This document shows, in pieces, positions 20,178 through 58,226 of a stretch of 64,000 bases of DNA. The position numbers and the translations under genes were made by a program. Origin of the DNA: an uncultured bacterium. GTDB taxonomy: Bacteria > Bacillota > Clostridia > Lachnospirales > Lachnospiraceae. The stretch spans positions 1 to 64,000 of the forward strand of contig CAMWUN010000013.1 in NCBI GenBank assembly GCA_947177425.1. Direction: 5' to 3'. Position 1 is the stretch's first letter. The number at the start of each line of letters is the position of its first letter. The notes beneath the pieces were generated by a model that had not been told where the DNA came from, made no database searches, and saw nothing but the letters and a program-made list of their open reading frames with translations.

Positions 20178-21221
20178 CTACACAAGCATCTTTCTCCCTG
20201 TATACGCAATCTTAAAATCTCTTTGGTGATACAGGAAATAGAGAGCCGTCAGATTTTCTCCAAGATAGCCTATATAACGGTCTGACCGTTCCCGTCCTTT
20301 GGGCACGCTTAATTCCTCCGTCCGTGCCAGAATGGGAAACATCCAATTGCAGAAATCCTGGAAAATCTGCCTTTTGGCAATCAGCATGTTGTAATTATAA
20401 AAATACTGCCCTGCAAAAATCTTCGGAAGCGCCTTTGCATAAAGCGGCGCACACTCTGCCAGGGCCTGAACCATGGCCTCCCAGTCCTGCTCTTTTAAGT
20501 AACGTCTGTGATGCTCATTTATACTTGGATAATGTATGGTTGGAAAGGGTAGTATGACATCAATGTCATTTTTATTCAAACGGTACAAATCTTCTTCCTG
20601 CACATCCAGAATACGCCTGTAGTGAAACAGTCCCAGGTAATCTGCATCTGCATGTTTTCCCACCCAGTACAGGGCGGACAGTTCGCTGTAGTTTACATTT
20701 TTTTCTGATATATTTTCCCCCTGATTATCACAGATTTCAGCAATGCGGATATCTGTCAGAGCCGCCCCCGCCTGAATTGCGTGAATCCAATCAGGCGCCC
20801 GGTAACTTTCTTTCAAAGGCTGGTCCCGGTAGAATTTGGACATAAATACAGAAAGCCCGGCCTGGCTGTTTCCGGCCGGACAGGCATGTAAAATCCGGTA
20901 TCCTTTTTTTTCATAGTATCGCTCCATCAGTGCCGCTTCCTTTTGGGAATCCATACACAGGTAATCCCTGATACCCTTTGTCTCCAAATCCCTGATAATG
21001 GCGGGATGATGGTTCTCCGGCGTCGCAATTAATACTTTGATATCATTTTCCTTAAATCTGTCCAATGTTATGACAGGAATCCCATCTATGTCATAAGGAT
21101 TTCCCGACTGTTCCTTAACGATAAAACACCAGACTTTGCAATCACTGTATAACTCTTTTATTGCATAATAAACACTTACGGCCACCATCTGGGCACCGTA
21201 AATAGCTATAAGGTTCTGCAT
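20178..21221 (-). CDS. DUF4422 glycosyltransferase with N-terminal Rossmann module
   Basis: The product is 347 residues. Residues 1-90 are the recurrent PglD-N-like module (LIAIYGAQMVAVSVYYAIKE, then DIKVLIATPENHHPAIIRDL). The rest is a DUF4422 domain, a GT-A-like family in capsule and LPS loci, recognised by NYSELSALYWVGKHADADYL, GLFHYRRIL and YNYNMLIAKRQIF. A TTG start twelve codons upstream is possible. I chose the second ATG of the ATGATG pair because GGAG lies six bases before it. The acceptor is unknown. Confidence 0.75.
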   Translation of the reverse strand: MQNLIAIYGAQMVAVSVYYAIKELYSDCKVWCFIVKEQSGNPYDIDGIPVITLDRFKENDIKVLIATPENHHPAIIRDLETKGIRDYLCMDSQKEAALMERYYEKKGYRILHACPAGNSQAGLSVFMSKFYRDQPLKESYRAPDWIHAIQAGAALTDIRIAEICDNQGENISEKNVNYSELSALYWVGKHADADYLGLFHYRRILDVQEEDLYRLNKNDIDVILPFPTIHYPSINEHHRRYLKEQDWEAMVQALAECAPLYAKALPKIFAGQYFYNYNMLIAKRQIFQDFCNWMFPILARTEELSVPKGRERSDRYIGYLGENLTALYFLYHQRDFKIAYTGRKMLV

Positions 21222-21280
21222 CATACTCTCCATTCTATGCCATTTGGAACTTTTCAAACACGCTCGACAATCCTTGCGTC

Positions 21281-22378
21281 CTACTTCATCCTCTCAAGCA
21301 CTTTACGGCAGTGTGTCTTGTCATAGGGATTAATTTTGTGGTTGGCAAGGGTCTTTTTTGTGTAATCGTCCTTTAAGCCCACCACGCCTTCCGGCATGAA
21401 AACTTCCCGCGGAAAGCACGCCATGTCTCCTATTTTCTGATATTCATTCTTAACCAGATATCCTCTGCCTATCATGTACTTTGTCTCATAATAGGTATTA
21501 AAGGACAAATTTAAACTGCCATCCGGATTGACAAATGACACATCCCTGTAAATATCCAGCAGTTCGCCGATTATCTGACTGCCCTTGACTGCTCCCAGTC
21601 CTGACCCGGAATTTACCTGCCCTCCATCATCAATTCCTATAAAAGCTTCATTATATAGTAAATCGTCAATGGGACGCAGAATTTCCACGTCTGTGTCAAA
21701 GTAAATACCTCCATGCTGATACAGTACATCTTTCCTCGCCAAATCCGTGGCATACATGTACTGTTTATTTTCCACGGCTTCCCTGGCATACTTATATTTT
21801 GCAAAATCATAGTTTGACTCATTCCACTGGATAATTTCATAACCGGGGCAGAACTTCTTCCATGATTCTATATTCTCTGCATATTCGTCCGGCAGTTTCT
21901 GACCGCCAATCCAGAAATAGTGGATAATCTTTGGAATCCGGGGCATCTTCAGACTTCTTATTTCAAAGGGCGCCGGCGGCTTTCTATTGAGAATGGTTGA
22001 AAAAATATACGCTTTCACACCGTCAAGCTCTGGAACATTATCCAGCCCGCCTATGACGGATAAGGAATAGTACAGGCTGAATAAAAGTGTAAACTCATGC
22101 ATTTCAGAAACATATTCCCGGCAAAAACGCTTAAGTGAAACTACCTTTACTTTGATATCGTCAATGGTACAGATAGTCCCGTCCAGAGCCTCATTCTGGT
22201 CTACAATAAAGACAAGGGAACCGCTTAGGCCTCTTTTATAATAGGACGCCAGAATTAATTTTGCCGATGCGCCTGCACCGTATAAAACAATTTTTTTCTC
22301 TTTTTTAAATAAATCTATTGGGTCTTTTACATCGCTGCATAAATTTAACATTTCTGTATTCCTATTCCGGCAATCCAT
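21281..22378 (-). CDS. GT32 (OCH1-like) glycosyltransferase with N-terminal Rossmann module
   Basis: The product is 365 residues. The N-terminal 120 form the recurrent module, starting KIVLYGAGASAKLILASYYK and ending FTLLFSLYYSLSVI. The catalytic domain is family GT32: MPRIPKIIHYFWIGGQKLPD, then YATDLARKDVLYQHGGIYFD with TDVE, the DxD metal site. GT32 enzymes transfer single sugars from nucleotide donors. The donor and acceptor are unknown. Confidence 0.85.
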   Translation of the reverse strand: MDCRNRNTEMLNLCSDVKDPIDLFKKEKKIVLYGAGASAKLILASYYKRGLSGSLVFIVDQNEALDGTICTIDDIKVKVVSLKRFCREYVSEMHEFTLLFSLYYSLSVIGGLDNVPELDGVKAYIFSTILNRKPPAPFEIRSLKMPRIPKIIHYFWIGGQKLPDEYAENIESWKKFCPGYEIIQWNESNYDFAKYKYAREAVENKQYMYATDLARKDVLYQHGGIYFDTDVEILRPIDDLLYNEAFIGIDDGGQVNSGSGLGAVKGSQIIGELLDIYRDVSFVNPDGSLNLSFNTYYETKYMIGRGYLVKNEYQKIGDMACFPREVFMPEGVVGLKDDYTKKTLANHKINPYDKTHCRKVLERMK

Positions 22379-22473: not shown

Positions 22474-23481
22474 TCAGACTGCATACAAAACTGTCTCGGC
22501 CTCTCTCAAAGAATAATGTCTCAAATAAAAGCGGTATTCCGGGTTCATTTCCAGCAAAAGCTTTGGCAGTTCCCAGATATCTTCTTTTTTATGATAAATG
22601 CTTACTGCCAGTTTAGGTTTCTGATTCTTAATAATATTTTGGGCGCCTATAAGCGCTTCTTTTTCCGCGCCTTCAATATCCATCTTGATAAAGGTAATAC
22701 GCCTGTCCCCTGCAATTTCGTCCAGCATTCCCGTTGTTATCCGGGTTTCTCCCTCCTTGGCAATCTGGGAATCCGAACTGCCTGTAGCATGGAAAGACAA
22801 TACACCATTGCTGCTCCACAAACCGGTATTTTCCAAAGTAAGGTTTTCAACGTCTTTCAATAAGGCACGGCACTTTTCAAGGCACATGGCATCCGGTTCA
22901 AAGGATATGATTTCCCTGTACTTTCCTCCCGACCATTTAATGAAATTCCGCACAGTCAGCCCGTCGAAACATCCTGCATCCACAAAAACTTCATCCTGTG
23001 CATGAGTCAGAAATGGCAGGTCAAAATACTGATTGTCAAACAAATCCACCATCAGCTTCCCTGCATTGATAATTTTATTTTCTCCAATGCCATGGGACAG
23101 CAATTGACGATAGATTTCCTCGTGATAAAATGCCGTAGCAATCAAGATTAGCTGTCCCGAATACATTTTCAAAAATTCCTGGGAACTGTATACAGGCATT
23201 CCGTTTTTTACCGATTCCCTGGGGGAATTATCCACATACCCTCGCCAATCTATGTCGGGGAAACTTTTAATTAGGTAATTTCCCCAGAATCCAGTGCCCC
23301 AGATGAAGACCTGTCTGTCTTCTGATAAATTAATTTTACGCCTGATTTCTGCGGCCTGGTCTGTATCTGCTACAATTTTGCAGATTTCAGTATAGTCTCC
23401 GGTCAGACTGAATAGTAACCTGGATTTGAAAATGTCTTTTGATTTTTGATCCGTTAATTTGGCGTAGATTTGTTCTAACAT
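22474..23481 (-). CDS. FkbM-family methyltransferase with N-terminal Rossmann module
   Basis: The product is 335 residues. Residues 55-145 hold the recurrent module (RQVFIWGTGFWGNYLIKSF, LILIATAFYHEEIYRQLL). The C-terminal part is an FkbM SAM-dependent O-methyltransferase: EVFVDAGCFDGLTVRNFI, ISFEPDAMCLEKC, FIKMDIEGAEKEALIGA and LAVSIYHKKEDIWELP. It likely methylates a glycan hydroxyl. It shares its layout with the protein at 38029-39198, which looks like a diverged paralogue. Confidence 0.85.
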   Translation of the reverse strand: MLEQIYAKLTDQKSKDIFKSRLLFSLTGDYTEICKIVADTDQAAEIRRKINLSEDRQVFIWGTGFWGNYLIKSFPDIDWRGYVDNSPRESVKNGMPVYSSQEFLKMYSGQLILIATAFYHEEIYRQLLSHGIGENKIINAGKLMVDLFDNQYFDLPFLTHAQDEVFVDAGCFDGLTVRNFIKWSGGKYREIISFEPDAMCLEKCRALLKDVENLTLENTGLWSSNGVLSFHATGSSDSQIAKEGETRITTGMLDEIAGDRRITFIKMDIEGAEKEALIGAQNIIKNQKPKLAVSIYHKKEDIWELPKLLLEMNPEYRFYLRHYSLREAETVLYAV

Positions 23482-23507
23482 CTCTATTCACACTTCAATG
23501 ACATTAA

Positions 23508-25529
23508 TTAAATAATATAAAAGTCATTTATCCCTCTTTGTTTTAATAGATTTCCAATTTCTTCCTGATAGTAAACAGACACAGCAACTGCAATTCCAGC
23601 TTTATCCTCTTGTTTTTTTTCTTTTTCCAAAAATTCATCCAATGTATAAACAGGCTGTCCACAAACAATGTCTGTGGCTTTACAACTGGTCACAATAAAA
23701 CCTGCAAAAGAAAGTTTATTGCGACTCAAAATTTTCGCATATTTTCGTCCATACAATCCAATACCGTATATATATAATCTTTTATATCTTTTGCAAAAGT
23801 GAATAAATTCCGTAAAATTAAAACCTTCAAAGTTTGCATACGAACTTATTACACAATTATTTCGATACTTCCGCAATACTCCCTGCAACTGATAGTCCAA
23901 ATTGGAAATCAGCAAAGATGCATTCTGCGTAGTCATTACAGTCGCAGAATAAAATCCTTTCTTTTGAGCAAGGTAAGGAATAATTCGTTCTATAGCATGA
24001 CTGATAGTTCCATCTTCTGGCATCGGCTCCTCACAAAAATCATCATATGTAAATGCATAGTTCCAAAGTCCTTCCAGCGCCTGTGTCCGACACCAAAAAG
24101 ATGTCGACAAAATAAAAGGAGACTTTCTTTTGTCAATTTTTATTGATTCTCCAATTTTACTTGCCAATTTTAGTGTTTCATCAAAGCAACAGGTCCATGC
24201 ATCATCTTTTAAACAAAAATACTGCCCATGAACAGGCGCTGGTGATGCTACAACTCCTAAAAAAGGATTTTTTTCAAATAATTCCAGTATATTATATATA
24301 TATGCTTCACTTCCAAGCAGATTTTCAAAAATACTATCCATAAATCTTTCCCCTACAGGAAAGCTGCCATTATTTCCGGAGGTCTTTTTATCGTGTACAA
24401 AACACATATATTCATATTTCTTAACTATCTCCCGGCAGCCTACAAGCAATGCACTGCAATCCCTACCCCTGTTTTGTACCTTGATAACTTGAAAATCCGT
24501 AATTCCTAATGAAGCAAATGCTCTATTTATTTTTTCAATATTTGCTTCCACAGATGTTGTAACATAAATATCTATCCATTTAGGTATATTCATTGCAAAA
24601 TGAACTATTTTATCCAACAGTTCATTATAGTATACATGAATAATAACCGCCGCTCTTTTACTCTGAACATTAAAATATGTCTGATATTCACTCAGTATAT
24701 AATCCAAATGCAGACCATGATAAAGGTCGCATATATCATAGCTGCATAACAATTTCTCCCAAAGATATTTTTCCGGGAAGCCCAGTTGTTTTATAATGTA
24801 TTCTAATAAATTTCTTGCATCGTGCCCGTCATCTGACTGAAAATTTTTCTTTGCAAACACTTCAGCCGGAACAAATGGACATCTTTCCTTTTTCACAAGG
24901 TCACAAGCCTTCCCCTCATACCAGATGAAATTGTTACAATTCCTTACATTTCTGAACCTTTCCAAATCACAATAAGATTTTCCTGTATATCCTGCTTCTT
25001 CCAGTGTATGTGAAAATGCAATATTGAACGGAATTTTCCCAGATAAATTATCAAAAAGCATTTCAAAAAAATGTAATGATTTATGAAATCTGTATGCACT
25101 TTTTTTTAGGACCAGAAACCGTGCATCTATGCTTTCTGGAAGTGTTTCTTTTTGCAGGGTGTAAATAGGAAAATTTCTTACCAATCCCCAAAAATCAACT
25201 GTTTCATCTTGCATTTTAGCAAATACTTCATCTAGCGGATAAAAAGGGCCTATCATATCTCCATCAATAAAAACCAGTTCATCATAATATTCTATTGAAA
25301 ATTTATAAAAAAAACTCTGGCTCTGGCTGCATGCTTCCTCTGCACTTGAGACTTTTTTTAAATACTCTGATTCAATTTTCTGTTTATGGCAAAACCTTTC
25401 AACCTCTCTGTCGTCACTTAGTACAACAATTTTTGATACTTCATTCTGTATGGCATTCCAAAGATAATTATTCCATTCATTTTGCAATTGAATTGTCGAA
25501 CTAATCCATATAACAGCTATCCGATTCAC
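23508..25529 (-). CDS. RgpF-like rhamnan-synthesis protein with C-terminal Rossmann module
   Basis: The product is 673 residues with a GTG start. Residues 1-270 contain a region with FIDGDMIGPFYPLDEVFAKM. Residues 285-560 match the RgpF/rhamnan synthesis F family (AAVIIHVYYNELLDKIVHFA, VQNRGRDCSALLVGC, YEYMCFVHDKKTS). RgpF proteins take part in rhamnose-rich polysaccharide assembly. The last 90 residues are the recurrent module (RLYIYGIGLYGRKYAKIL, AVAVSVYYQEEIGNLLKQRG). No rhamnose synthesis genes are in the window. Confidence 0.8.
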   Translation of the reverse strand: MNRIAVIWISSTIQLQNEWNNYLWNAIQNEVSKIVVLSDDREVERFCHKQKIESEYLKKVSSAEEACSQSQSFFYKFSIEYYDELVFIDGDMIGPFYPLDEVFAKMQDETVDFWGLVRNFPIYTLQKETLPESIDARFLVLKKSAYRFHKSLHFFEMLFDNLSGKIPFNIAFSHTLEEAGYTGKSYCDLERFRNVRNCNNFIWYEGKACDLVKKERCPFVPAEVFAKKNFQSDDGHDARNLLEYIIKQLGFPEKYLWEKLLCSYDICDLYHGLHLDYILSEYQTYFNVQSKRAAVIIHVYYNELLDKIVHFAMNIPKWIDIYVTTSVEANIEKINRAFASLGITDFQVIKVQNRGRDCSALLVGCREIVKKYEYMCFVHDKKTSGNNGSFPVGERFMDSIFENLLGSEAYIYNILELFEKNPFLGVVASPAPVHGQYFCLKDDAWTCCFDETLKLASKIGESIKIDKRKSPFILSTSFWCRTQALEGLWNYAFTYDDFCEEPMPEDGTISHAIERIIPYLAQKKGFYSATVMTTQNASLLISNLDYQLQGVLRKYRNNCVISSYANFEGFNFTEFIHFCKRYKRLYIYGIGLYGRKYAKILSRNKLSFAGFIVTSCKATDIVCGQPVYTLDEFLEKEKKQEDKAGIAVAVSVYYQEEIGNLLKQRGINDFYII

Positions 25530-25545
25530 TTGTCAGCATCCACCT

Positions 25546-27633
25546 TTAACGATTAAAATCTGCTACATTTTTTCCCATAAATTCATCTATATTTATCAGA
25601 CAATTAATTTCATCCGTCATTATTTCCGAAAAATCGGCTGAGAAGCCTCCCAGCAAAGCATCATAAAATTCTATACTGCTGTCCGCCGAATAAATATCCG
25701 GTATTAAATTAAATAATATATCTGAGTAACTTAAGATTTCATCATGCATTCTTTTTATCAGTTCTATTGCCTCTTTACTACGCTTTTCTTCATAAAAGAC
25801 AAGATTACCGGCCTTGTCAACTCCCCAAAATGTAGGTTCATAAGATGTAATAATGGTTTCCAAAAAATAATAAAACCTATATACATTAGCCTCAATCTGA
25901 AAATCCCCAGCCTCTTTGTATAAAGAATGGCACTTTAATTCTTTCATCTTCTTTTTGTCTGCCAGTCTCCGTAAAAAATAAAAACCTTCAAACTTCGTTT
26001 CCATAATCTGCTCCAGTGCCGCCTGGACAGTTCCCATCGCTACGAAATCCATAAATGCAATCTTAAGGCAATCGTTTAGCCCTGATTGCCTTAAATATTT
26101 TTTATAATAATTCTGTTCCTCCTTACATTTGGTTAAAAGCATTTCATTAGATATATGCATATCCTGTGTATATCCAATACCAAATCTTTCCTTGAGCAGT
26201 TCTTTCTTATCTTTCACAAATATAAAATCTATAATTTCCTGAACATCTGCTTCTGTTTCAGCCGCCGCAACCAATGCCGCCCGTCTGGATGTATACAAGT
26301 AAACCGCTTCCGGAAGTTTTAAATACGGATTTTCTGTTTTAATTTTTTGGTATATTTTTTTTAACAAATATCCATCCCTTGAAGGAAAAAGAACTAAATC
26401 GCATTGTCCTGACTTTATGCCCTGAATCAGCCAGATTATATATTTACAAATCAATGGTGCAACAAAAAATGATATCGCCTCCTCCAGGCGTCCAATTAAT
26501 AATTTTCCATTTGCCTCACATAAACGGAAAGGGTCATTATAAGCTTGTTCAGCAAAAAGTGACAGTACAATATTCTCCTCTAAAGTCCGACAGTTTTGCA
26601 GCAAGCCGGAATATAAGCTACATTCCAGTTTTTCCTGTGCACTGAATACCTGATAGGTATCTATCCCTTCATATTGAGCTGCTATAATGTCCGAAAAGTA
26701 ATTGTCTCCAATATGAAGATACTTTTCCCCCTCATTAGATGTACGTTCCTTATATTTTTTAAACAGCCCCTCCTGCTTTTTTAACTTATGTTCACATGAA
26801 ATAAATATATCTTTATAACCTTTAATTCCAAACTCCTGTAATATATTCTCTAAAATATCCCTGGAAAAATACATATCAGACACAATATAGACCTCTTTCC
26901 CCTGCTCCAAGGTCCAATCAAAAATATTACACATTTTTTCCCGTCTGACAAGAAACCGTTTTTCCAGTTCTACCTCTTTATCCAGTAATTGATGTATTTC
27001 CTCTTCACTGCTCTGTGTATTTGTCTGCAATTTTCTATAAATTTCGTATATATCTGGATTGTCTTCGCTTTTAAAAGAATCTTCTGCTTTCACACGCTCT
27101 TCTGAAAAGCAATACTTCAAATCTCTTAACCCAGTATCCATGACAGAAAAGATATCTCTTGGTCTTAAAATCCTACGCATCAGCAATGTGTCAAAAATAT
27201 CAAAAGAAATAATATCATGCTGTTTTATTTTTTCTTTCAGTTCGCCCTCTCTTTGTGTAAAACAGGGAAATTCTTTTACCTCTTCCTGTTCCTTCTGCAA
27301 ATTTTTACCCTGTATGTCATAAACCGGAATATCATTTTCCTGACAAAATTTCTCTATCCGACGGTAAATCACGTTAATTACAGCATTACGCGCAATAATT
27401 ACAATAATGCAATTATTTATTTGTGCAGCTTCCGAATAAGATAATACCTTATACCCCCAGAGCACCTGTCCTGTTTTTTTTTCGTCCATTAGTCCGGCAA
27501 TTCTATTGCCATCGATTTTCTCCACTAATTTCTGTGTATTGAGCCCGGTGCCATATAGTATAATTGGATTCGTTTTTGAATCCAGAAAATTATTTCTAAA
27601 CTGGTCATATATATATTTTTCTTCTATGTACAT
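25546..27633 (-). CDS. HAD-superfamily protein with N-terminal Rossmann module
   Basis: The product is 695 residues. The recurrent module is at residues 20-110 (NPIILYGTGLNTQKLVEKID, NNCIIVIIARNAVINVIYRR). A HAD phosphatase-like domain follows: DIISFDIFDTLLMR with the nucleophilic Asp, YIVSDMYFSRDIL, and YLHIGDNYFSDIIAAQYEGI with the metal-binding Asp. The last 300 residues (LVLFPSRDGYLLKKIYQKIK, AVYLYTSRRAALVAAA) are of a type found fused to HAD domains in surface-glycan loci, with no function I know. It starts one base before the next gene ends. Confidence 0.7.
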   Translation of the reverse strand: MYIEEKYIYDQFRNNFLDSKTNPIILYGTGLNTQKLVEKIDGNRIAGLMDEKKTGQVLWGYKVLSYSEAAQINNCIIVIIARNAVINVIYRRIEKFCQENDIPVYDIQGKNLQKEQEEVKEFPCFTQREGELKEKIKQHDIISFDIFDTLLMRRILRPRDIFSVMDTGLRDLKYCFSEERVKAEDSFKSEDNPDIYEIYRKLQTNTQSSEEEIHQLLDKEVELEKRFLVRREKMCNIFDWTLEQGKEVYIVSDMYFSRDILENILQEFGIKGYKDIFISCEHKLKKQEGLFKKYKERTSNEGEKYLHIGDNYFSDIIAAQYEGIDTYQVFSAQEKLECSLYSGLLQNCRTLEENIVLSLFAEQAYNDPFRLCEANGKLLIGRLEEAISFFVAPLICKYIIWLIQGIKSGQCDLVLFPSRDGYLLKKIYQKIKTENPYLKLPEAVYLYTSRRAALVAAAETEADVQEIIDFIFVKDKKELLKERFGIGYTQDMHISNEMLLTKCKEEQNYYKKYLRQSGLNDCLKIAFMDFVAMGTVQAALEQIMETKFEGFYFLRRLADKKKMKELKCHSLYKEAGDFQIEANVYRFYYFLETIITSYEPTFWGVDKAGNLVFYEEKRSKEAIELIKRMHDEILSYSDILFNLIPDIYSADSSIEFYDALLGGFSADFSEIMTDEINCLINIDEFMGKNVADFNR

Positions 27634-30844: not shown

Positions 30845-31321
30845 TTAGATTTCATATAAAACATCTTCTAAAGAGATAATTGGGCAATCCAGCTTTTCGC
30901 TCAATTTCTCTTCTATCTCATCAAAGAAAGTAATCGCAGTTACAACAACAGCATCTACATCTTCGAAAGAATCATCCATTGTAACAATGTCTAAATCAGC
31001 ATAAATTGTATCCGCTTTCTGGTCAATCCCGTAGGCAATCGTTATATCTGTATCTTTCAGTTCATCTACCAGCGTTTCGCCTGCATAACTCATTCCATAA
31101 ACAGCGATTTTCTTATAACCGTTCTTTTCAAAATAAGACGCCAGATTTTTTCCATCCTGCTTTACCTTTACCCACTGATTCATCATAAGGAACAATGCAA
31201 GATGTTTATCCGAGAACTGACGTGCAACTTTCAATTTATCTCCCGTGAATTTGCCTGCACTGACAGCGCCGCCAACTGCTCCTGCCACTAAAGATAATAC
31301 TCCAATAACTCCTTTTTTCAT
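30845..31321 (-). CDS. Standalone Rossmann-module protein with hydrophobic N-terminus
   Basis: The product is 158 residues. A Gly/Ala/Val-rich hydrophobic segment at 4-24 (GVIGVLSLVAGAVGGAVSAG) could be a membrane anchor. A helical linker of about 45 residues follows. From about 70 to the end it is the recurrent module without any enzyme (KIAVYGMSYAGETLVDELKD, DAVVVTAITFFDEIEEKL). The signature glycine is kept as YGMSYAG. It may be a scaffold or regulator for the fused enzymes. No function is known to me. Confidence 0.7.
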   Translation of the reverse strand: MKKGVIGVLSLVAGAVGGAVSAGKFTGDKLKVARQFSDKHLALFLMMNQWVKVKQDGKNLASYFEKNGYKKIAVYGMSYAGETLVDELKDTDITIAYGIDQKADTIYADLDIVTMDDSFEDVDAVVVTAITFFDEIEEKLSEKLDCPIISLEDVLYEI

Positions 31322-32493: not shown

Positions 32494-32504
32494 ACCTGTC
32501 TCCT

Positions 32505-49164: not shown

Positions 49165-49863
49165 TTAATCCTCCATGCTGCTGCCACTTTGCATTAGAAA
49201 TTCAACATATTGCAAATCCAATTCTGTATCAATATCAACCGACTGCCTCTGATTCATAATATAGGCATAAGATTTTTTACCGTAAAAAGAACGTTCTTTT
49301 CTAAGTACATCTACTTTTGAAATATATATTGCCCCATTTAATCTGTAATAGCTTTGTAGTTCCTGCCGCCTGGTTATATTTTCTTCCTTCACGAACCCAG
49401 ACAAACTTAAATCTTTTGGCAGAATATTGCTCAATAAGGGGCTGTGCTCGCATTCACACACACTAACTACCGAATCGGCATCCCTCTCATAAAATATCCG
49501 AAATGCTTCATCTATATTCTCAGAAGTTCTTAACGGCGAAGTTGGCTGTAACATTACAATATTATCAAAATATATTTTCATTTTTTCATATTCATCCAAG
49601 ACTTCAAATAAAACATCAAGTGACTTTGCCGTATCTGTTGCATTTATCTCATTTCTTAGAAACGGAACATTTGCTCCATATTTTTTTGAAATTTCTGCAT
49701 ATTCGTATGAGTTTGTGGACACCATCACTTCATCTACATATCGGCTACCAATAGCGCTCTCTATTGTATACGCAATTAACGGTTTGCCGTTTAGCAATCG
49801 TATGTTTTTGTTTTTTATTCCCTTAGATCCACTTCTGGCAAGTATTACCCCTATTGTCCTCAT
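49165..49863 (-). CDS. legF: CMP-nonulosonate (acylneuraminate) cytidylyltransferase
   Basis: The enzyme activates a nonulosonic acid with CTP to the CMP-sugar. Its 232 residues match NeuA/LegF/PseF: TIGVILARSGSKGIKNKNIR with LLNGKPLIAYTIESA, VSTNSYEYAEISKKYGA, IVMLQPTSPLRTSENIDEAF, and the C-terminal SVDIDTELDLQYVEFLM. The legB-ptmE-legG-legI neighbours make legionaminic acid or a relative the likeliest substrate. The symbol rests on context. Confidence 0.88.
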   Translation of the reverse strand: MRTIGVILARSGSKGIKNKNIRLLNGKPLIAYTIESAIGSRYVDEVMVSTNSYEYAEISKKYGANVPFLRNEINATDTAKSLDVLFEVLDEYEKMKIYFDNIVMLQPTSPLRTSENIDEAFRIFYERDADSVVSVCECEHSPLLSNILPKDLSLSGFVKEENITRRQELQSYYRLNGAIYISKVDVLRKERSFYGKKSYAYIMNQRQSVDIDTELDLQYVEFLMQSGSSMED

Positions 49864-49897
49864 AACTCTTATCCCGCAAAGTCACTTTTATATTCCG

Positions 49898-50557
49898 TTA
49901 CCATATTGATTTAACCAGCCTAAATCCTTCTGCAAACTTTACGCCTGCTTCAGCGCTTCTTATATGCGCCAGCACTTTTATATTATCCAGACTTCTGGGA
50001 AATGGATGCTCCCCTATTTCTGTTTTATACAGATTAAATGCTTCCAGTTTTTTTCCTAAATAATTACTTACATCTATATATACATTTGGAATAAACGGGT
50101 GATCAGGTAAACCAAAGTCCGTCTCCGATAAAATCTCCATTGTTAAAATAGTTTTGATGTACGATGCCCTAAACGACTTTGTACATGCATAAACCCATCG
50201 AAATACAATTCTATGATCCGAATGTGCGTCATTGTAATCTGATACTAACAGAACCTGCGGCCTTATCGCCCCAATGTAATCACTAATCATCCCAACGCCA
50301 TTATTATCAGAAATCCTATCAAGTTTCGTTGTTGGCAGATTTAAGTCCTTCTGTCCGTCAAACTGATAATATTCTTTTATTAATTTCATCTGCTTATTTC
50401 TTTTTTGGATTTGCTCCCGGGTATAGCCTTCTGACTCCAATATCCCCGTTATATTGAGCCAATAAACCTCATGTCCTTCATCTTTTGCCCTTGCTATACC
50501 TCCCCCCGCTCCTAAAGTTTCATCATCTGGATGGGGTGATATTATTAATATTTTCAT
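49898..50557 (-). CDS. PIG-L/LmbE-family deacetylase
   Basis: The product is 219 residues. The zinc-site motif HPDDE is in KILIISPHPDDETLGAGGGI, with YNDAHSDHRIVFRWVYA supplying the HxxH-type ligands. Family members remove N-acetyl groups from GlcNAc-containing molecules. Next to a formyltransferase gene this suggests N-deacetylation followed by re-acylation of a sugar, which is an inference. TAGGAG precedes the ATG. Confidence 0.85.
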   Translation of the reverse strand: MKILIISPHPDDETLGAGGGIARAKDEGHEVYWLNITGILESEGYTREQIQKRNKQMKLIKEYYQFDGQKDLNLPTTKLDRISDNNGVGMISDYIGAIRPQVLLVSDYNDAHSDHRIVFRWVYACTKSFRASYIKTILTMEILSETDFGLPDHPFIPNVYIDVSNYLGKKLEAFNLYKTEIGEHPFPRSLDNIKVLAHIRSAEAGVKFAEGFRLVKSIW

Positions 50558-50572
50558 ATTTTTCTCCTATTT

Positions 50573-51459
50573 TTACAGGTACATTCCTTTTTTAGGTTTA
50601 AAATTATTATCATAACAAAAAATACTTATAATGCCCTTTCCTGTTTTTACAGAAAATGAGCCATTGTCTGATACATCTATTATTTTTCCAGGCTCCAAAT
50701 TTTCATATCCATCATCTGGAAGTTCCCTTGCTTCCCACACCTTATATTCCTTATGCTCATATTCAAAATGCGCCCCTACATATGGTTCCGACAATGCCCT
50801 TACCAGATTGTAAATATTTCTGCTTGCCATCCGCCAGTCTATTTTCCCATCCTCTCTATTTCTTTTTCTCCAAGTATTTCCCGTCTGGCATTCTGTTTCA
50901 ATTTCGCATACGCTGCCCTCACACAGACGACTCCATAAAGCCGCCAATTGTCCTCTGGCAGTATCATAATTTTGTCATATAAAGTTCTTGCCGTATCTTC
51001 ATAACATATTGGGATTTTAATCTGTGAAATTACTTTGCCTGTGTCTGCCCCTATATCCAGCATAAAGAAACTTGATGCCGTTTCTGTCAATCCCAATGCC
51101 AGCGCCCATATAATCGGATGTCTTCCCCTACTATATGGAAGCGCTGCCGGATGAAATCCCACCACTCCTCTGGGAAATATGTCCAAAATCTCTTTCTTTA
51201 AAAGCTGAGACCACCCCAAGCAAAAGCCTATATCCGGCTTTAATTTCTGGATAAATTCTACAGAATTCGTATCATTAATATTGTTAACATAAAGATATGC
51301 TATATTGTTTCTATTACATATTTCTGCCAAATCTACAAAATCTGCATTACTTTTCGACTGATTTTTAGTGATTACCCCAATAATATCCGCCTTTTTCTCC
51401 AGCAACGTTTCCAAAAAAATTTTTGAAGATTCTACGCATCCTATAAATAGTATCTTCAT
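50573..51459 (-). pseudogene. Formyltransferase-family gene interrupted by a frameshift
   Basis: The 5' frame (50839-51459) starts MKILFIGCVESSKIFLETLL and has FHPAALPYSRGRHPIIWALA with LDIGADTGKVISQI, the formyl-THF catalytic core of methionyl-tRNA-formyltransferase-like sugar formyltransferases. After RTLYDKIM the homologous C-terminus continues in another frame (50573 to about 50967): DTARGQLAALWSRLCEG, WRKRNREDGKIDWRMASR, NLVRALSEPYVGAHFEYEHK. Adding one G (ATGGATACT instead of ATGATACT near 50966) would restore a single product of about 295 residues. Either a real mutation or a sequence error. The context of deacetylase and nonulosonate genes suggests an N-formyl sugar. Confidence 0.8.
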
Positions 51460-51469
51460 CCCGGCTTCC

Positions 51470-52630
51470 TCATTTTATATCATTAAAAACTTTTTTTACC
51501 ACGCCGCCATTTTTCAAATAATTTTTTACTTCTTTTACAATCGTTTCGGAAGTGTTTACTCCTTCATAAATATTTCTTTCTTTCTCCAGGCAGCCTTCTC
51601 TTTTCATTGTCTGCGCCTTCTCTATCCCCTGAGTAATTTCTTCTTCTGTCCAGCCGCAGTCTATAATGCTTCTCCCTTTTATCCTTCCCTTCTGTCTGTC
51701 TCCAATATTCACAGTAGGAATATGAAATGATGGTGCTTCCAATATCCCACTGGACGAATTTCCTATTACCATTTCACAATACTTTAAAGCACTCAAATAC
51801 CGAATCGTCCCCAGTGAACTCACTCCTATTGCCCTGTTTCTGTTTGCTTTTGTATACTCATCTATCTGACTGTTAATGCTTCTCCCTTCTGTGTCTGCAT
51901 TTGATTTGGTAAATATAATCTTATATTTATTAAATTTATCCAGTGCAACCAGCAAATTTTTAAACTGCGCACCCGCTGTATTCTCTTCAAGCGTCACTGG
52001 ATGAAATGTAACAATCACGTATGGCTCTTCCAATGAGAACTGAATACTTTGTCCCAATTCCTTCTTACCCAACAATGTCCGGGTTCTTATATTCTCTACC
52101 CCCAATGCTCCTACACAAAACACCCTTTCTGGCTGTTCACCTAATTGGATAACTCTTTTCCGGTAATGTTCTATTGATGTAAAATGCAGCATACTCATCT
52201 TGGTTATTGCATGTCTGACAGAGTCATCAATCACTCCTTCTGTCAACTCTCCTCCATGGATATGCGCTATCGGTACCCGGTGCACCATAGCAGCCACTGC
52301 AGCCGCCAATGCCTCATATCTATCCCCCAGTATCATCACAATATCCGGCATTATTCTCGTAAAAATATCTGCAAATCCTATCACTCCTAATCCTATAGAC
52401 TTAGTAATTCCATTAGGTGTGTCTGAACTGAGGAGCATTTCATTGCTTTCTGTTATCTCAAATCCATCCTGCTTGATCTCCTTATAAGTAAGACCAAATT
52501 CCGGCGACAAATGCATGCCTGTCGCCACAAGCTGCAACTGCATTTCGCTGTCACTGTTTATTCTTGAAATTAATGGTTTCAGCAGACCATATTCTGCTCT
52601 TGTTCCGGTTATTACACATACTTTTTTCAT
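51470..52630 (-). CDS. legG: UDP/GDP-HexNAc 2-epimerase, hydrolysing (NeuC/LegG type)
   Basis: The product is 386 residues. It contains KKVCVITGTRAEYGLLKPLI, MILGDRYEALAAAVAAM, IAHIHGGELTEGVIDDSVRH and GNSSSGILEAPSFHIPTVNI with GDRQKGRI, the hydrolysing 2-epimerase pattern. It would release the ManNAc-type or 2,4-diacetamido-6-deoxymannose substrate of the synthase. The start of the synthase-side gene overlaps by four bases, so translation is coupled. The substrate is inferred from legB and ptmE. Confidence 0.9.
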   Translation of the reverse strand: MKKVCVITGTRAEYGLLKPLISRINSDSEMQLQLVATGMHLSPEFGLTYKEIKQDGFEITESNEMLLSSDTPNGITKSIGLGVIGFADIFTRIMPDIVMILGDRYEALAAAVAAMVHRVPIAHIHGGELTEGVIDDSVRHAITKMSMLHFTSIEHYRKRVIQLGEQPERVFCVGALGVENIRTRTLLGKKELGQSIQFSLEEPYVIVTFHPVTLEENTAGAQFKNLLVALDKFNKYKIIFTKSNADTEGRSINSQIDEYTKANRNRAIGVSSLGTIRYLSALKYCEMVIGNSSSGILEAPSFHIPTVNIGDRQKGRIKGRSIIDCGWTEEEITQGIEKAQTMKREGCLEKERNIYEGVNTSETIVKEVKNYLKNGGVVKKVFNDIK

Positions 52631-53625
52631 ATCTGTATCATCTCGTCTGCCTTATAGTCCCGGTCTGCTCTCATTCCAATGATTTCATTCCACCTCATGG
52701 GACTGATCCCTGTCCCCGGACGTTTTGTTGTCATATTTTCTTCGGTAAAAGTTTCTCCCTGTCTTATCTGTTTAGCAGCCACTATACTTTTCCTTACAAT
52801 ATCTATATTAGCCTTTTCCGATGCTGAAACCTGCTTTACATCTTTTCCCAGAGCAAGTTCTATCCTGCGTATTCCCTCTACCATCGCTTTTAGTTCAGAC
52901 GGCTCCAGACTCGCCTTATGATCCGGCCCTTCCATGTTTCTGTCTAGTGTAAAATGCTTTTCTATTACACAGGCCCCCAGTGCAACTGCCGCTAAAGGAA
53001 CTTCAATCCCCTGTGTATGATCCGAATAGCCTACTGGAACTCTCAACTCCTTTCCCATACTTACCATCGCCAAGAGATTAACATCCGATAGTGGCGTAGG
53101 ATATTGTGTATTGCAATGGAGCAGTGTTACATCCTCTGCGCCGTTTTCCCTAAGCACATTCAAAGCACTTCCCACCTCTGAAAGGCTACTCATCCCTGTT
53201 GAAAGAATTACCTTTTTGTGCTGGCTCGCTATTTCACGTAGATAAGGAAAGTTTGTTATTTCACCGGAGGGAATCTTTATGATTGAAATCCCCATGGCAA
53301 CCAACATCCTGGCACTTTCTATATCAAATGGAGTTGACAGAAAAATAATATCTTTTCCCCTGCAGTATTCCTGAAGTTCCCAATGCATCTTCTCTGTTAA
53401 CTCAAGTTTTTTTAACATGAAATACTGGGTCTCCATTTTATCTGTTGTTTTTAATTGATATTCTGCTTTCTTTGCATCTTTACATACTAAATTTTCTGCC
53501 TTAAAAGTCTGAAACTTCACAGCGTCTGCACCTGCTTTAACTGCTTCATCCACTAACCTTTTGGCAGTTTCAATATCGCCATTATGGTTTACACCTGCTT
53601 CGGCTATAATAAATACTTTACTCAT
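52627..53625 (-). CDS. legI: Nonulosonic acid synthase (NeuB/LegI type)
   Basis: The enzyme condenses phosphoenolpyruvate with a six-carbon amino sugar to a nine-carbon sialic-acid-like sugar. Its 332 residues have the TIM-barrel part (KVFIIAEAGVNHNGDIETAK, GADAVKFQTFKAENLV, GYSDHTQGIEVPLAAVALGA, EKHFTLDRNMEGPDHKAS) and a C-terminal antifreeze-like SAF domain (RKSIVAAKQIRQGETFTEEN). Neighbours suggest legionaminic acid rather than neuraminic acid. Confidence 0.93.
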   Translation of the reverse strand: MSKVFIIAEAGVNHNGDIETAKRLVDEAVKAGADAVKFQTFKAENLVCKDAKKAEYQLKTTDKMETQYFMLKKLELTEKMHWELQEYCRGKDIIFLSTPFDIESARMLVAMGISIIKIPSGEITNFPYLREIASQHKKVILSTGMSSLSEVGSALNVLRENGAEDVTLLHCNTQYPTPLSDVNLLAMVSMGKELRVPVGYSDHTQGIEVPLAAVALGACVIEKHFTLDRNMEGPDHKASLEPSELKAMVEGIRRIELALGKDVKQVSASEKANIDIVRKSIVAAKQIRQGETFTEENMTTKRPGTGISPMRWNEIIGMRADRDYKADEMIQI

Positions 53626-53643
53626 GCTTCTTGAAATTATCCT

Positions 53644-54255
53644 CTACCTGATGACTTCGCCATCCTCTATATTTTTTCTTACAGTTGTTCCCGCACCTAT
53701 AATACAGTTGCTTCCAATTTTCCTTCCCTGAATTACAGTGACATTCGCCCCGACAAAAGTCTCTTTTCCCACCGACACGCCACCACACAGCACGCTGCTT
53801 ACTGCTACATGAGAAAACTCTCCCACTTGACAGTCATGCTCAATAATTGCCCCAGTATTGATAATGCACATTTTTTGAATTTGCGTATTTGCATTAACCA
53901 CCGCTTTTTTTCCGATATATATACCTTCTTCAAACCCGGCATCCAGTGCAACTGTTGCTGAATTGTCTATAATATTAGGAATTTTATAACCAATTCTTTT
54001 TAACTGCTGATATAATCTGTTCCTCACATTTCCATGCCCCAAAAAACCTATGGTTATAAATGCATTTCTAATACCATTAGCATAATATTTATCTAATGCC
54101 CCATCTGTATCCAATACACGATAATTCCTAAAATGTCTTTCTTGCATTTCTTCTGTATCAAGAAAGCCTACGATATGATATTGACCAGCCTGCTCAATAC
54201 TGTCAACCACACTATGAGCATGTCCTCCCAGCCCAAGCAAAATAATTTCTTCCAT
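53644..54255 (-). CDS. PglD/NeuD-family sugar acyltransferase
   Basis: The product is 203 residues. The N-terminal Rossmann-like domain is EIILLGLGGHAHSVVDSIEQ to about residue 80. The rest is a left-handed beta helix of hexapeptide repeats (AVVNANTQIQKMCIINTGAI, HDCQVGEFSHVAVSSVLCGG). This is the PglD/NeuD/LegH group that N- or O-acetylates UDP-amino-sugars or nonulosonates with acetyl-CoA. Its N-terminal domain is the closest named relative of the module fused to many enzymes in this cluster. Confidence 0.88.
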   Translation of the reverse strand: MEEIILLGLGGHAHSVVDSIEQAGQYHIVGFLDTEEMQERHFRNYRVLDTDGALDKYYANGIRNAFITIGFLGHGNVRNRLYQQLKRIGYKIPNIIDNSATVALDAGFEEGIYIGKKAVVNANTQIQKMCIINTGAIIEHDCQVGEFSHVAVSSVLCGGVSVGKETFVGANVTVIQGRKIGSNCIIGAGTTVRKNIEDGEVIR

Positions 54256-54258
54256 TAT

Positions 54259-55305
54259 TTATTGGCATCCTAATCTCTTCTTCATTTTTTCCAGTTCGTC
54301 TAACTGGCCCATATCAAGCCAAGCCTCCTCGCCAATTGGATACACTCCAACCCGCTTCCCTTCTTCCATAATTTTTTCAATAATATCTGGAAAGTCTATA
54401 GGTTCATTATATGCAAGACCTTCTACAACCTCCGGCTCTACAAAATAACAGCCCGTATTGGTAAAAAATGACATTTGGGGTTTTTCCTGCATAGACTCAA
54501 TTGTGCCATCTTCGCCAATATGCACTACACCATATGGAATTGAAAAATTTTTAAGAGAACATATCATCGTAATCAGGTTTCCTGATTCGATATGCTGCTT
54601 ATACGCTTTTGTCAAGTCATCATCTATCAAAATATCACAGTTCGTTAGAATAAATGTCTCTTGAACCTGTCCTTTTAACAAGCTGATACCGCCTCCCGTG
54701 CCAAGAGGTTTTGCCTCCACTACAAACTTTAAGTCATAATCCTTCTCCAGTTCATCAAAATATGCTTTTATCATATTTCTTTTATAATTTACTATCATGT
54801 AAAAATGCTTACATCCGTATGTACAAAATTGCTTAATAATATGTTCTGCTATTGGGTAATCTCCAATAGGTATCAACGGTTTGGGAAGAATGTTGGTATA
54901 TGGTGACAGCCTTGCTCCAAGTCCACCTGCCATCATAACCACTGGTATGTTATTATCAAACTTTCTCTGTGGCTGTTCTAGATTGTTTAAAAAAATAACT
55001 TTTTGAATTACATGCTCTGCGTTTAGTATTGGAATCGCATCTATTTCATACTTCCTCATAACAGATATTGCTAAATCAGCCTGCTCTTCATATAAATATT
55101 TTGGTCTGTAATTAGCCACAAACTTTATCTCAGCTTGTATATCTCCATTTTTCAATATCCATCTACGAATGTCTCCATCCGTAACTGATGCAAGAAGAAT
55201 CCCATTATTATGTACAAATAATATTCTTTTTGTGTTTTTGTCTAATAACTGCATTGCCTCAAGTATAGTATTGTTTTCCTCAATATAAATCGTTTTTGTA
55301 TCCAT
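54259..55305 (-). CDS. ptmE: CBS-domain sugar-nucleotidyltransferase (PtmE type)
   Basis: The product is 348 residues. Two CBS domains (residues 1-115, LFVHNNGILLASVTDGDIRR, YEIDAIPILNAEHV) precede a nucleotidyltransferase domain with PVVMMAGGLGARLSPYTNIL, KPLGTGGGISLLKG and FILTNCDILIDDDLTKAYK. This architecture is that of Campylobacter PtmE, a glucosamine-1-phosphate guanylyltransferase that opens the GDP-linked legionaminic acid route. CBS domains may give feedback control. Confidence 0.85.
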   Translation of the reverse strand: MDTKTIYIEENNTILEAMQLLDKNTKRILFVHNNGILLASVTDGDIRRWILKNGDIQAEIKFVANYRPKYLYEEQADLAISVMRKYEIDAIPILNAEHVIQKVIFLNNLEQPQRKFDNNIPVVMMAGGLGARLSPYTNILPKPLIPIGDYPIAEHIIKQFCTYGCKHFYMIVNYKRNMIKAYFDELEKDYDLKFVVEAKPLGTGGGISLLKGQVQETFILTNCDILIDDDLTKAYKQHIESGNLITMICSLKNFSIPYGVVHIGEDGTIESMQEKPQMSFFTNTGCYFVEPEVVEGLAYNEPIDFPDIIEKIMEEGKRVGVYPIGEEAWLDMGQLDELEKMKKRLGCQ

Positions 55306-55330
55306 TCCTTGACAGTAACATTCCTAACTT

Positions 55331-56308
55331 CTAAATATTATATATATCTATTTTATACTTATCCAAATTGTGTTTTAAAAACTCTATTGTATTTCTTAAT
55401 CCTTCTTCTAAAGAGTATTGCGGTTTCCAGACAGTTAACCTTAAAATCTTTTTATTACAGCCAAGCAGCCTGTTTACTTCACTTTTTTCCGGACGCAGCC
55501 GCTCTTCATCGCAGACAATTTGTGCGTTAGGATTAATCTGCCTGATTAGTTCCTGCGCAAGATGCCCTATGGATATTTCTTTTTGTGTGGCAATATTAAT
55601 TTCTTCTCCAATTGTCTGGTCTGACTCAAAAATCGAAATAAATCCATGAACTGTATCTTTTACATAGTTAAAGTCTCTTGTAGGCGTTAAAGAACCCAAC
55701 TTTATTTCTGTCTTTCCTGCAAGTAACTGCATGATGATAGTTGGAATCACTGCTCTTGCAGATTGTCTTGGACCGTATGTATTGAATGGCCTTACAATTG
55801 TTACTGGCAATTGGAAAGAACGATAAAAGCTTTCAGCAAGCCTGTCGGCACCTATTTTCGTGGCCGAGTATGGGGACTGTCCCTGGAAGGGATGTTTCTC
55901 ATCTATGGGGGCATATTGTGCCGTGCCGTATACTTCTGATGTTGATGTGATTAAAACTCTTTTTATCCCAAACTTCCTTGATGCTTGTAAAACATTCAAT
56001 GTTCCTTTTATATTAGTATCAACGTAGGTATCCGGTGAATGATAGCTGAATGGTATTGCGATTAAGGCTGCCAGATGAAATACTGCATCTACACCTTTCA
56101 TCGCCTCCTCAACTCCATTGTGATCCCGTATATCACCTTGAAAAATCTCAACATTTTTCATGATATTTTCTGGCAATGTATCTAACCATCCCCAGTTACT
56201 AAAGGAGTTATAATATACAAACGCTTTTACCTCATATCCTTTTTTTACCAGTTCCTCCGTTAAATGACTGCCTATAAATCCATCAGAACCTGTAACCAGT
56301 ACTTTCAT
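55331..56308 (-). CDS. legB: NAD-dependent 4,6-dehydratase (LegB type)
   Basis: The product is 325 residues. KVLVTGSDGFIGSHLTEELV with FVYYNSFSNWGWLDTLPEN is highly characteristic of LegB/PtmB, the GDP-GlcNAc 4,6-dehydratase. STSEVYGTAQYAPIDEKHP and the YSATK catalytic motif (Tyr-x3-Lys) follow, as do RPFNTYGPRQSARAVIPTII and KDTVHGFISIFESD. The product should be a 4-keto-6-deoxy sugar that needs a LegC aminotransferase, which is not present here. Confidence 0.9.
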   Translation of the reverse strand: MKVLVTGSDGFIGSHLTEELVKKGYEVKAFVYYNSFSNWGWLDTLPENIMKNVEIFQGDIRDHNGVEEAMKGVDAVFHLAALIAIPFSYHSPDTYVDTNIKGTLNVLQASRKFGIKRVLITSTSEVYGTAQYAPIDEKHPFQGQSPYSATKIGADRLAESFYRSFQLPVTIVRPFNTYGPRQSARAVIPTIIMQLLAGKTEIKLGSLTPTRDFNYVKDTVHGFISIFESDQTIGEEINIATQKEISIGHLAQELIRQINPNAQIVCDEERLRPEKSEVNRLLGCNKKILRLTVWKPQYSLEEGLRNTIEFLKHNLDKYKIDIYNI

Positions 56309-56324
56309 ATCTCATCTAATCCTT

Positions 56325-58226
56325 TTAATCTTCTAATAAATATTTGTATTTTCGCAAATAGGATGTTGCTACGTTAACTGGCAATATATCAGAAATGTTA
56401 ATATTATGATTTTTGACGCACTCATCTAACTTTAAATTAAAAGCATTCTGCAACTCTATATCCCCATCCAGTTCTTTCCATTTTCCGTCTAACTTTTCAT
56501 TCATTTCTATTGCCATCCCCAAAATATCTTCCTGTAAAAAAGGGATTAATTCTAAACCATTTTTTGCAAAATACTTTCCATTTAATTCGCCTATACATAT
56601 AAAATCAATTGCAATATTAAACATTTCCCAAAATGATAATTCTCTTTTTTCATTAACATTATATAAACGATTAAATATACACAAATCTCCTTTGTGACAA
56701 AAAATATTATGTTCAATTGCTGGGTAATATGGTAATAAAAGTGCAACTGGCTTAGCAAATATTAGAGGCAACAAACATATTCCCGCTGTAGAGCCCAAAT
56801 AAAACTTGCAAAAGCGATGGATTGCTAAATCAAGGAACTCATCATATCCCAACTTAACAAAATTAATACACTTATTCTGAATCTCCTTCTGTTCTGCAAC
56901 TTGCCCCATCCTAACGGACTGAACACCATTTTTATCAAGATAATCTATTGCACTATTCATCACGTCAAAAGGAATATCTCTATAGTCATGGTATGAAAAA
57001 TCTACATCCGACAATATATTTTTCAAATATTCACTATCTCGCGTATGTAAACACACATACTCTCCCGTAAGGCCAACTTTGTCCTTTATTATCCTTTTGC
57101 CAAATTCCAATTCCTTCACACTAAAGTCAACTGCTAAATCATGTTCTATTATCGCGCACCCAAGATTACTTACATTTATCCACTTTCCATCATATTCATA
57201 TTTTTCGTATTTCTCAAAGATATCTTGAATCCAAAAAAAATATTCTTCTTGGTTCTTCAAAAGATTGATTTGTCTTCCTATCAACTCATTAAAACATGCA
57301 TTTGCTCCCTCAAAAGGTCTTGAATAATCATCTATTGGAATATATATTTTAAAAGTTTCATTTTCAGCTTCTTCAAACAATAACTTATTTAATACTCGAA
57401 TTTCTTCTCCGATTCTGTCGCAGCGTAAATTATATATTTTAATATATTTTGCCTGATTTATTAAATCTCTTTTTTTTGCAAATTCCGGTTCTGGATCAAA
57501 CAATAAGTATCTCCCTTTATGGACAATTCTTTTTTCCTTTCTTACAAATTGCAGTATGGAAAATTTAATAAACGAAAACTTTTCTGGATTGGCTTTTATG
57601 TACTTTGCATATGCGCCTTCCTCATCCATCCATATTACAAAGGCATTTTGGTCAAGAACGTACAATAAATTATGATACCAAATTTGATCTAAATAATTTT
57701 CGTTAGGAATAAATGCCATTCCAATTCCGTTATTCTTTAAATTGTTCAATAACTCATTAATAAGTATCCCTATATCTAAGTCATTATCTATAAGCCGAAG
57801 GTCATATATATATATTTTCTTATAGTCATCTAATTTTTTCGTCAAATATTGCGAAAATCCTATTTTATTCATATTAAAAAAATAGAAATTAGCTTGCAAA
57901 AAATTGTCAGAAAACAATGTCCATATTTCTTCTGGATAGTTATAAATACATTCTCTTAATTTTATCCAGTTTATAACTTTATTTTCATTTGCCAGTTCCT
58001 TTGTTTTTATATCACAAATAATCTCTTCATAATATATATTGGCAATAATGATATAATCGTATTCAAGTTCAGGCAAAAGTTCAGATGAATAAACCGCCAT
58101 ATCTTTCCATGTTTCCCTTTGAGGATGTGTTTCAATATATCCTATTATGCGACATCTTTTCGCGCAAATATTCGATACGCATTTTTCTGATTCCAGACCT
58201 GTTCCCCATATATATACTTTTTTCAT
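56325..58226 (-). CDS. TIGR04372-like glycosyltransferase with N-terminal Rossmann module
   Basis: The product is 633 residues and very AT-rich. Residues 2-92 are the recurrent module (KVYIWGTGLESEKCVSNICA, YDYIIIANIYYEEIICDIKT). The last 260 residues resemble the TIGR04372 family of polysaccharide-biosynthesis glycosyltransferases (VCLHTRDSEYLKNILSDVDF, YHDYRDIPFDVMNSAIDYLD, KFYLGSTAGICLLPLIFAKP). The 280 residues between are not recognised, although DNDLDIGILINELLNNLKNN may be structural. The likely role is transfer of a cluster sugar. Confidence 0.7.
   Translation of the reverse strand: MKKVYIWGTGLESEKCVSNICAKRCRIIGYIETHPQRETWKDMAVYSSELLPELEYDYIIIANIYYEEIICDIKTKELANENKVINWIKLRECIYNYPEEIWTLFSDNFLQANFYFFNMNKIGFSQYLTKKLDDYKKIYIYDLRLIDNDLDIGILINELLNNLKNNGIGMAFIPNENYLDQIWYHNLLYVLDQNAFVIWMDEEGAYAKYIKANPEKFSFIKFSILQFVRKEKRIVHKGRYLLFDPEPEFAKKRDLINQAKYIKIYNLRCDRIGEEIRVLNKLLFEEAENETFKIYIPIDDYSRPFEGANACFNELIGRQINLLKNQEEYFFWIQDIFEKYEKYEYDGKWINVSNLGCAIIEHDLAVDFSVKELEFGKRIIKDKVGLTGEYVCLHTRDSEYLKNILSDVDFSYHDYRDIPFDVMNSAIDYLDKNGVQSVRMGQVAEQKEIQNKCINFVKLGYDEFLDLAIHRFCKFYLGSTAGICLLPLIFAKPVALLLPYYPAIEHNIFCHKGDLCIFNRLYNVNEKRELSFWEMFNIAIDFICIGELNGKYFAKNGLELIPFLQEDILGMAIEMNEKLDGKWKELDGDIELQNAFNLKLDECVKNHNINISDILPVNVATSYLRKYKYLLED

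Follow-up and report, generated by a model that had tools for sequence, protein, structure and literature searches.

Why should one small domain recur in so many unrelated enzymes of a single bacterial locus? The question is raised by bases 1 to 64,000 of contig C13 (77,226 bases) of an uncultured member of the Lachnospiraceae, whose genome comprises 4.19 Mb in 142 contigs. In this stretch, called the window here, a first-pass annotation had noticed a repeated block in 13 proteins and had proposed that it is a ligand-sensing or docking domain that assembles the enzymes on one glycan or one scaffold. Our computational analysis shows that the 13 segments are one family, fused to many enzyme types of clostridial glycan islands and associated with flagellin. 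With a probability of roughly 0.4, the module would sense a nucleotide and tune the enzyme to which it is attached.

One module family in thirteen proteins

All 13 segments were located, nine of them N-terminal, three C-terminal and one in the small protein 30845. Their positions are listed below together with the related domain of NeuD.

20946-21209, minus strand: module, N-terminal, DUF4422 protein 20178-21257
21998-22297, minus strand: module, N-terminal, GT32-type (Gly_transf_sug) protein 21281-22378; weakest of the 13
23062-23316, minus strand: module, N-terminal behind a helical segment, FkbM methyltransferase 22474-23481
23511-23783, minus strand: module, C-terminal, RgpF-family protein 23508-25529
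27313-27570, minus strand: module, N-terminal, HAD-like protein 25546-27633 (HAD models below cut-off)
29314-29580, minus strand: module, N-terminal, methyltransferase 28567-29586
29608-29865, minus strand: module, C-terminal, GT2 protein 29599-30807
30851-31114, minus strand: module of the small stand-alone protein 30845-31321
31115-31321, minus strand: N-terminal part of the stand-alone protein, a Gly/Ala-rich hydrophobic stretch and then a strongly conserved helix; putative membrane anchor
31384-31647, minus strand: module, C-terminal, Methyltransf_24 protein 31357-32508
38872-39132, minus strand: module, N-terminal, FkbM methyltransferase 38029-39198
41098-41373, minus strand: module, N-terminal, radical-SAM-like protein 40216-41418 (radical SAM models below cut-off)
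42324-42575, minus strand: module, N-terminal, methyltransferase 41460-42620
57966-58223, minus strand: module, N-terminal, TIGR04372 glycosyltransferase 56325-58226
54001-54246, minus strand: PglD_N domain in NeuD-type acetyltransferase 53644-54255; distantly related and left out of the module count

Many segments are joined directly by BLASTP (23508 and 31357, E 3e-10; 22474 and 56325, E 3e-8), and matches of the segments to other window proteins at E < 0.5 were few and at most 53 residues long. Leave-one-out profiles regained 11 of the 13 segments at E <= 0.013, scoring better than 2000 shuffled decoys; the segment of 21281 (E 0.047) fell within the decoy range and that of 40216 (E 15) was not recovered. 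The window NeuD outscored the left-out segment in six of the 13 rounds, so the border of the family towards PglD_N is soft. A profile of 655 modules from other genomes, aligned with the help of a window-informed profile and including close orthologues (for example from locus L085), placed the window segments at ranks 1 to 13 among 2040 sequences (E 4e-21 to 1e-4), followed by NeuD (1.8e-4) and then a shuffled decoy (0.19). Pairwise similarity is low, with 10-31% identity to the first sequence.

When the whole genome was searched with the 13-row profile at E <= 1, 27 places were found: 13 in the window, 12 on contig C15, one on C87 and a weak one on C28. Thus, 25 of the 27 fall in two clusters, the second of which, on C15, holds 14 module open reading frames (ORFs). 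No place was obtained in this search in the epimerases, the nucleoside-diphosphate-sugar dehydrogenase or the NeuD of the window. Because of the profile recovery and the clustering of the genome places, all 13 segments are one family, beyond chance, and the shared block described by the first-pass annotation is borne out.

A Rossmann domain with known relatives

The module is a small Rossmann domain of the nucleotide-binding type, nearest to the Rex, 3NKL, PglD_N and CoA-binding folds. In a set of 683 modules (loci L103, L107 and L149 dropped as duplicates; 3 of the 683 sit in NeuD-like ORFs), the first glycine of the glycine loop is kept in 656 and the acid after strand 2 in 562, and both first glycines occur together with this acid in 403. 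Glycine loop and acid make up the ribose-binding signature of Rossmann folds, the acid being so described in PMC4777477.

The resemblance to PglD N-terminal domains (PF17836) pointed out earlier holds in fold and is weak in sequence; the best of the 13 proteins reached 16.5 bits, below the Pfam cut-off of 23.4 bits. The protein at 53644 is, as had been said, a bona fide PglD/NeuD protein and carries a hexapeptide acyltransferase domain, whereas a Pfam scan found this domain in none of the 13 proteins; 3 of the 683 module entries in other loci match it. With the Rex redox repressor core the likeness is one of fold only, and no winged-helix DNA-binding domain is among the Pfam matches listed for the 13 proteins. 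Similarity to 3NKL is strong and to WbaP weak, and the domain of unknown function (DUF) of WbaP type, PF13727, is not among the matches listed for the 13 proteins at E <= 1. This DUF and the single-domain 3NKL are known on membrane phosphoglycosyl transferases and PglF-like dehydratases, whereas the module is found here on many other enzyme types. Further relatives are VioB and, at a weak E of 0.2, D-mycarose C-methyltransferase in its C-terminal part.

No module reaches a gathering cut-off in the Pfam copy that holds version 2 of PF22674 (C2185-like_N). The cut-off of that version is reached nowhere in the genome (best 18.1 against 27 bits), and 5 of 105 module proteins match it at E <= 1e-3. 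Version 3, PF22674.3, is precomputed on the two window proteins for which the annotation was looked up, 30845 (P0001) and 31357 (P0121), and, by hand count, on 97 of 120 homologues listed for a module-MptE-like protein. Among the matches listed by a literature search on the name C2185-like_N, none was about the family. The PDB entry 2PY6, an FkbM methyltransferase of Methylobacillus flagellatus, a bacterium of another phylum, looks like an FkbM enzyme with this module; its root mean square deviation of 8.0 suggests another domain angle than in the present proteins. The module domain is therefore already known from this annotation and structure. What is new is the scale of its fusion within single islands and its flagellar context, neither of which was found in the titles and abstract beginnings of the papers listed by the literature searches.

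A separable domain on many enzymes

By position, the 683 modules divide into 334 N-terminal, 210 C-terminal and 13 internal ones and 126 in ORFs of fewer than 215 residues. The partners listed by the first-pass annotation for the window stand over the Pfam/NCBIfam cut-offs for DUF4422, GT32, FkbM, RgpF, GT2, methyltransferase families and TIGR04372, and stay below them for the radical SAM (40216) and HAD (25546) assignments. Elsewhere the module is joined to radical SAM, CTP_transf_like, Capsule_synth, GT4/GT1, GT11, GT-D, TylF, ATPgrasp_TupA, polysaccharide deacetylase, TIM barrel (AP_endonuc_2), MptE-like and LicD proteins. This gives at least 18 partner families, a Maf/MptE-like fusion included, the tally being of partners over cut-off plus Caps_synth from a scan of 105 module proteins. 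The scan covered 105 of 117 ORFs (eight cut by locus ends and four taken as NeuD-type were left out, two of the latter, L056:4285 and L057:18730, being short module proteins) and matched 57 families at E <= 1e-3, frequent ones being FkbM (13), GT2 (12) and radical SAM (10).

Within most partner clusters the position of the module is fixed (cluster 0 is chain-linked from several families), and 197 of the 1290 module-less ORFs of the same loci match a partner region, module-less meaning that no module was detected and the ORFs being mechanical calls with spurious ones among them. Given the varied positions and these module-less matches, the module is an added, separable domain and not an integral part of each catalytic fold. 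The fusion is probably ancient for most partners. Such old fusions might have been kept for stability and spread with the islands, the module then being an inherited structural cap without common function. The mostly fixed position per partner cluster and the very high sequence divergence would agree with this, but a domain without function would hardly be expected to show a conserved motif, a conserved stand-alone copy and so many partner families, and we consider a mere cap quite improbable.

Similarity among modules tracks the partner and not the locus. On different partners they score a mean of 12.2 bits within the same locus and 11.8 bits between loci, and between loci 6.9% of same-partner pairs exceed 40 bits, vs 1.5% of different-partner pairs. 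This tracking of the partner would be expected if the module bound the nucleotide-sugar or sugar on which the attached enzyme works. The N-terminal domain of PglD and the C-terminal domain of sugar C-methyltransferases are precedents for such substrate holding, and the relation of the module to PglD_N, to VioB and, weakly, to the D-mycarose enzyme points the same way. However, glycosyltransferases, cytidylyltransferases and LicD have nucleotide sites of their own, the module is N-terminal on some partner types and C-terminal on others, and partner regions also occur without it, so that substrate holding appears unlikely.

The stand-alone protein and possible docking

The first-pass annotation had described the module as alone at 30845. 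The module is there, but it is preceded by some 69 residues, hydrophobic and helical in character, and this hydrophobic N-terminus had been overlooked. Stand-alone relatives show 57-84% identity to the window copy, conserved helix included, in a set picked from the best matches and the loci; identity goes down to 42% in the 80 loci of stand-alone proteins. A hydrophobic N-terminal stretch is present in 65 of 79 short ORFs with the conserved helix and may anchor them in the membrane. The 80 loci, mostly titled Lachnospiraceae (one title is Muribaculaceae), contain 587 module ORFs among 1379 ORFs, with a median of seven per locus and two loci with one only. Among the 13 stretches read from the window genome and its relatives, the anchor-type copy was found in five, both clusters of the window genome among them, and in none of the stretches of genomes G001, G005, G007 and G012.

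Such a protein invites a docking explanation, in which modules would contact one another, flagellin or flagellin chaperones, and the enzymes would be gathered at the membrane by the hydrophobic stand-alone copy as a hub. Many enzymes per locus carry the module, and the flagellin O-glycosyltransferase FlmG is reported to bind flagellin through an N-terminal domain (PMC7591256). Among neighbouring module genes in the stand-alone loci and in the stretches of the window genome and its relatives, a gene with a C-terminal module precedes one with an N-terminal module 75 times against 55.5 expected by shuffling, and the reverse order occurs 66 times against 55.4. Two adjacent modules also lie in one 797-residue ORF (L100:17182-19575, mechanical call), the first like the C-terminal modules of partner cluster 0 and the second like an N-terminal module of the DUF4422 cluster. 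On the other side, same-locus modules are no more alike than others, which speaks against a locus-specific docking code, though not against generic docking. The anchor-type copy was found in five of the 13 stretches read, and docking alone would not need the kept binding-type motif. Docking is thus somewhat doubtful, and is nearly as likely as nucleotide sensing because of the conserved stand-alone copy with its hydrophobic start and the FlmG precedent. As for the original proposal, its ligand-binding side agrees with the glycine loop and acid kept in most modules, while assembly on one scaffold finds no counterpart in the similarity of same-locus modules.

Association with flagellin

The first-pass annotation did not see an association with flagella. 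Of eleven further genomes of the same genus, four have no module, one has a single weak place and six have 6 to 16 places on one to three contigs. In all six with at least six matches (G001, G005, G006, G007, G008 and G009) a cluster shares its contig with flagellin, and a LicD-cluster ORF with the module comes second after flagellin in G001 and G005. The five congeners with no or one module place also have flagellin, which therefore does not require the module.

At E <= 1e-5, 43 of 150 genomes of a family sample and 33 of 299 of a phylum sample contain the module. In the family sample flagellin was found in 42 of the 43 module genomes vs 36 of the 107 others (p 3e-14; 8e-14 without the window genome). 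All 28 genomes with at least two module matches are flagellin-positive, and the lone flagellin-negative module genome is G155. By hand count, at least 15 of the 43 carry module and flagellin at a distance of 3-35 kb on the same contig (G025, G035, G041, G052, G062, G069, G090, G091, G103, G106, G114, G121, G130, G159 and G166). Flagellin is likewise encoded in 47 of 47 searched genomes with the stand-alone protein; these come from 50 of the 80 loci chosen for long contigs (two lacking data, two in one genome), their base rate is that of the family sample (E <= 1e-25), and every best match of the 47 lies below that E.

In the phylum sample, the distance between flagellin and a module is about 8-16 kb in G299, G353, G376, G400, G510 and G512. 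Nine module genomes have at most 10 contigs and a listed flagellin; the two are linked within 20 kb in four of them (G106, G299, G376 and G510) and unlinked by the listed places in five (G055, G118, G142, G168 and G352). G404 has no listed flagellin place. The chance of four linked genomes among nine, at our estimate of about 2% each, is 3e-5. MptE-like proteins, presumably of the Maf family, gave three matches in nine same-genus genomes; the module check covered two of these, both of which are module fusions, the third match being in G014. In the flagellin glycosylation islands of Geobacillus and Clostridium botulinum, genes for nonulosonates, FkbM and further methyltransferases likewise lie close to flagellin, and, unlike the islands described here, no common module is mentioned for them in the available part of the report (PMC5109656).

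Proposed role of the module

Taken together, these features suggest that a Rossmann module, fused to many clostridial glycan-island enzymes at a mostly fixed position per partner cluster, in islands often near flagellin, may bind a nucleotide or nucleotide-sugar of the pathway. It would stabilise a dimer and tune the attached enzyme, as the DUF of WbaP does, and the members of one pathway, among them glycosyltransferases, methyltransferases and radical SAM enzymes, could then respond to a common nucleotide pool. Some of the clusters also contain a stand-alone copy, whose hydrophobic N-terminus is a putative membrane anchor. In the WbaP study, the DUF is stabilised by UMP, UDP and UTP (the uridine mono-, di- and triphosphates) and makes the majority of the dimer contacts, UMP inhibits the enzyme, and the authors floated feedback on PglF-like dehydratases via the same domain (PMC10942596). 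The motif and this WbaP case make nucleotide sensing with dimerisation the preferred explanation.

Several observations pull the other way. The acid is replaced by valine or isoleucine in 100 of the 683 modules, and the second glycine is kept in just 34 of the 126 short ORFs. Methyltransferases and radical SAM enzymes are not known to release uridine nucleotides, so one common signal is not obvious. As a control, FkbM-containing genomes were flagellin-positive in 24 of 29 cases (p 3e-4), and part of the flagellin link is therefore general to such glycan genes. The difference in the phylum sample (flagellin in 31 of 33 module genomes vs 217 of 266) was not significant (p 0.087). Late flagellar genes within 10 kb were found in none of the 80 stand-alone loci, no flagellin is listed beside the further clusters of G007 and G008 (C11 near 461-480 kb, C19; C1), and no MptE-like match was obtained in the window genome. 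Finally, the window island adjoins nusG-rplKA-rplJL-rpoBC, and flagellin lies on other contigs.

The island of the window

Beside the module genes, the island contains genes for a nonulosonate sugar, of which those for LegB, NeuC, NeuB and NeuD are over cut-off:

49165-56308, minus strand: nonulosonate (legionaminate-type) genes, namely PseF-like cytidylyltransferase (below cut-off), NeuC, NeuB, NeuD, nucleotidyltransferase-like (below cut-off) and LegB
within 49165-56308, minus strand: between these genes, ORF 49898 without family match and a split formyltransferase

In the loci read, the nearest relatives of NeuC, NeuB, NeuD, the nucleotidyltransferase-like protein and LegB stand near flagellin in G007 (48-84%), and those of 19003 and 20178 in the flagellin-side cluster of G008 (76% and 70%). 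Other island genes have their nearest relatives in loci L085, L097, L111 and L084, with no late flagellar gene within 10 kb. The end of contig C68 is no more than 0.7 kb from its flagellin match, and C13 ends at 77226; the cluster on C15 may follow C68, which ends just past flagellin. On balance, the window island probably modifies flagellin.

The module island (15405-58226) lies beside ribosomal and rpo genes (8668-13185), and a PGA_cap (capsule synthesis) gene is located at 9513-10904, between the genes for ribosomal proteins L10 and L1. In G012, a genome of another family, two module genes (L060 on C44) stand between relatives of the window rplJ and rplA, and a shared insertion site at ribosomal genes is possible.

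The formyltransferase (50573-51459) is split into two overlapping ORFs, with the N-terminal domain in 50839-51459 and the C-terminal one in 50573-50947, by a frameshift or an assembly error. Also within the island, 39213-40214 encodes squalene-hopene-cyclase-like repeats (PF13243, E 8e-7) and 44263-45447 a beta-propeller-like protein (best E 9e-4, below cut-off). The region 58301-62691 was read as an unusual-sugar cassette with relatives in L111; it encodes a SPASM radical SAM protein, a transketolase divided between two ORFs and, below cut-off, a heptose enzyme resembling HldE.

Significance

The module, of about 85 residues, would be a sequence marker for the glycan loci of flagellated Lachnospiraceae, and the present data give a functional lead for a Pfam family that had none. 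Lachnospiraceae flagellins face the host immune system, and the module could serve as a common regulatory or docking element in the building of flagellar sugar coats. A bolder and rather unlikely version would make it a regulator of the whole flagellin glycosylation pathway in clostridia, with the activity or place of at least a dozen unrelated enzymes set at once by a single nucleotide ligand or by a single stand-alone module in the membrane. We know of no other protein-glycosylation pathway with such a shared regulatory domain. More generally, a small domain shared by many enzymes of a glycan pathway would provide a handle on the coordination of such pathways.

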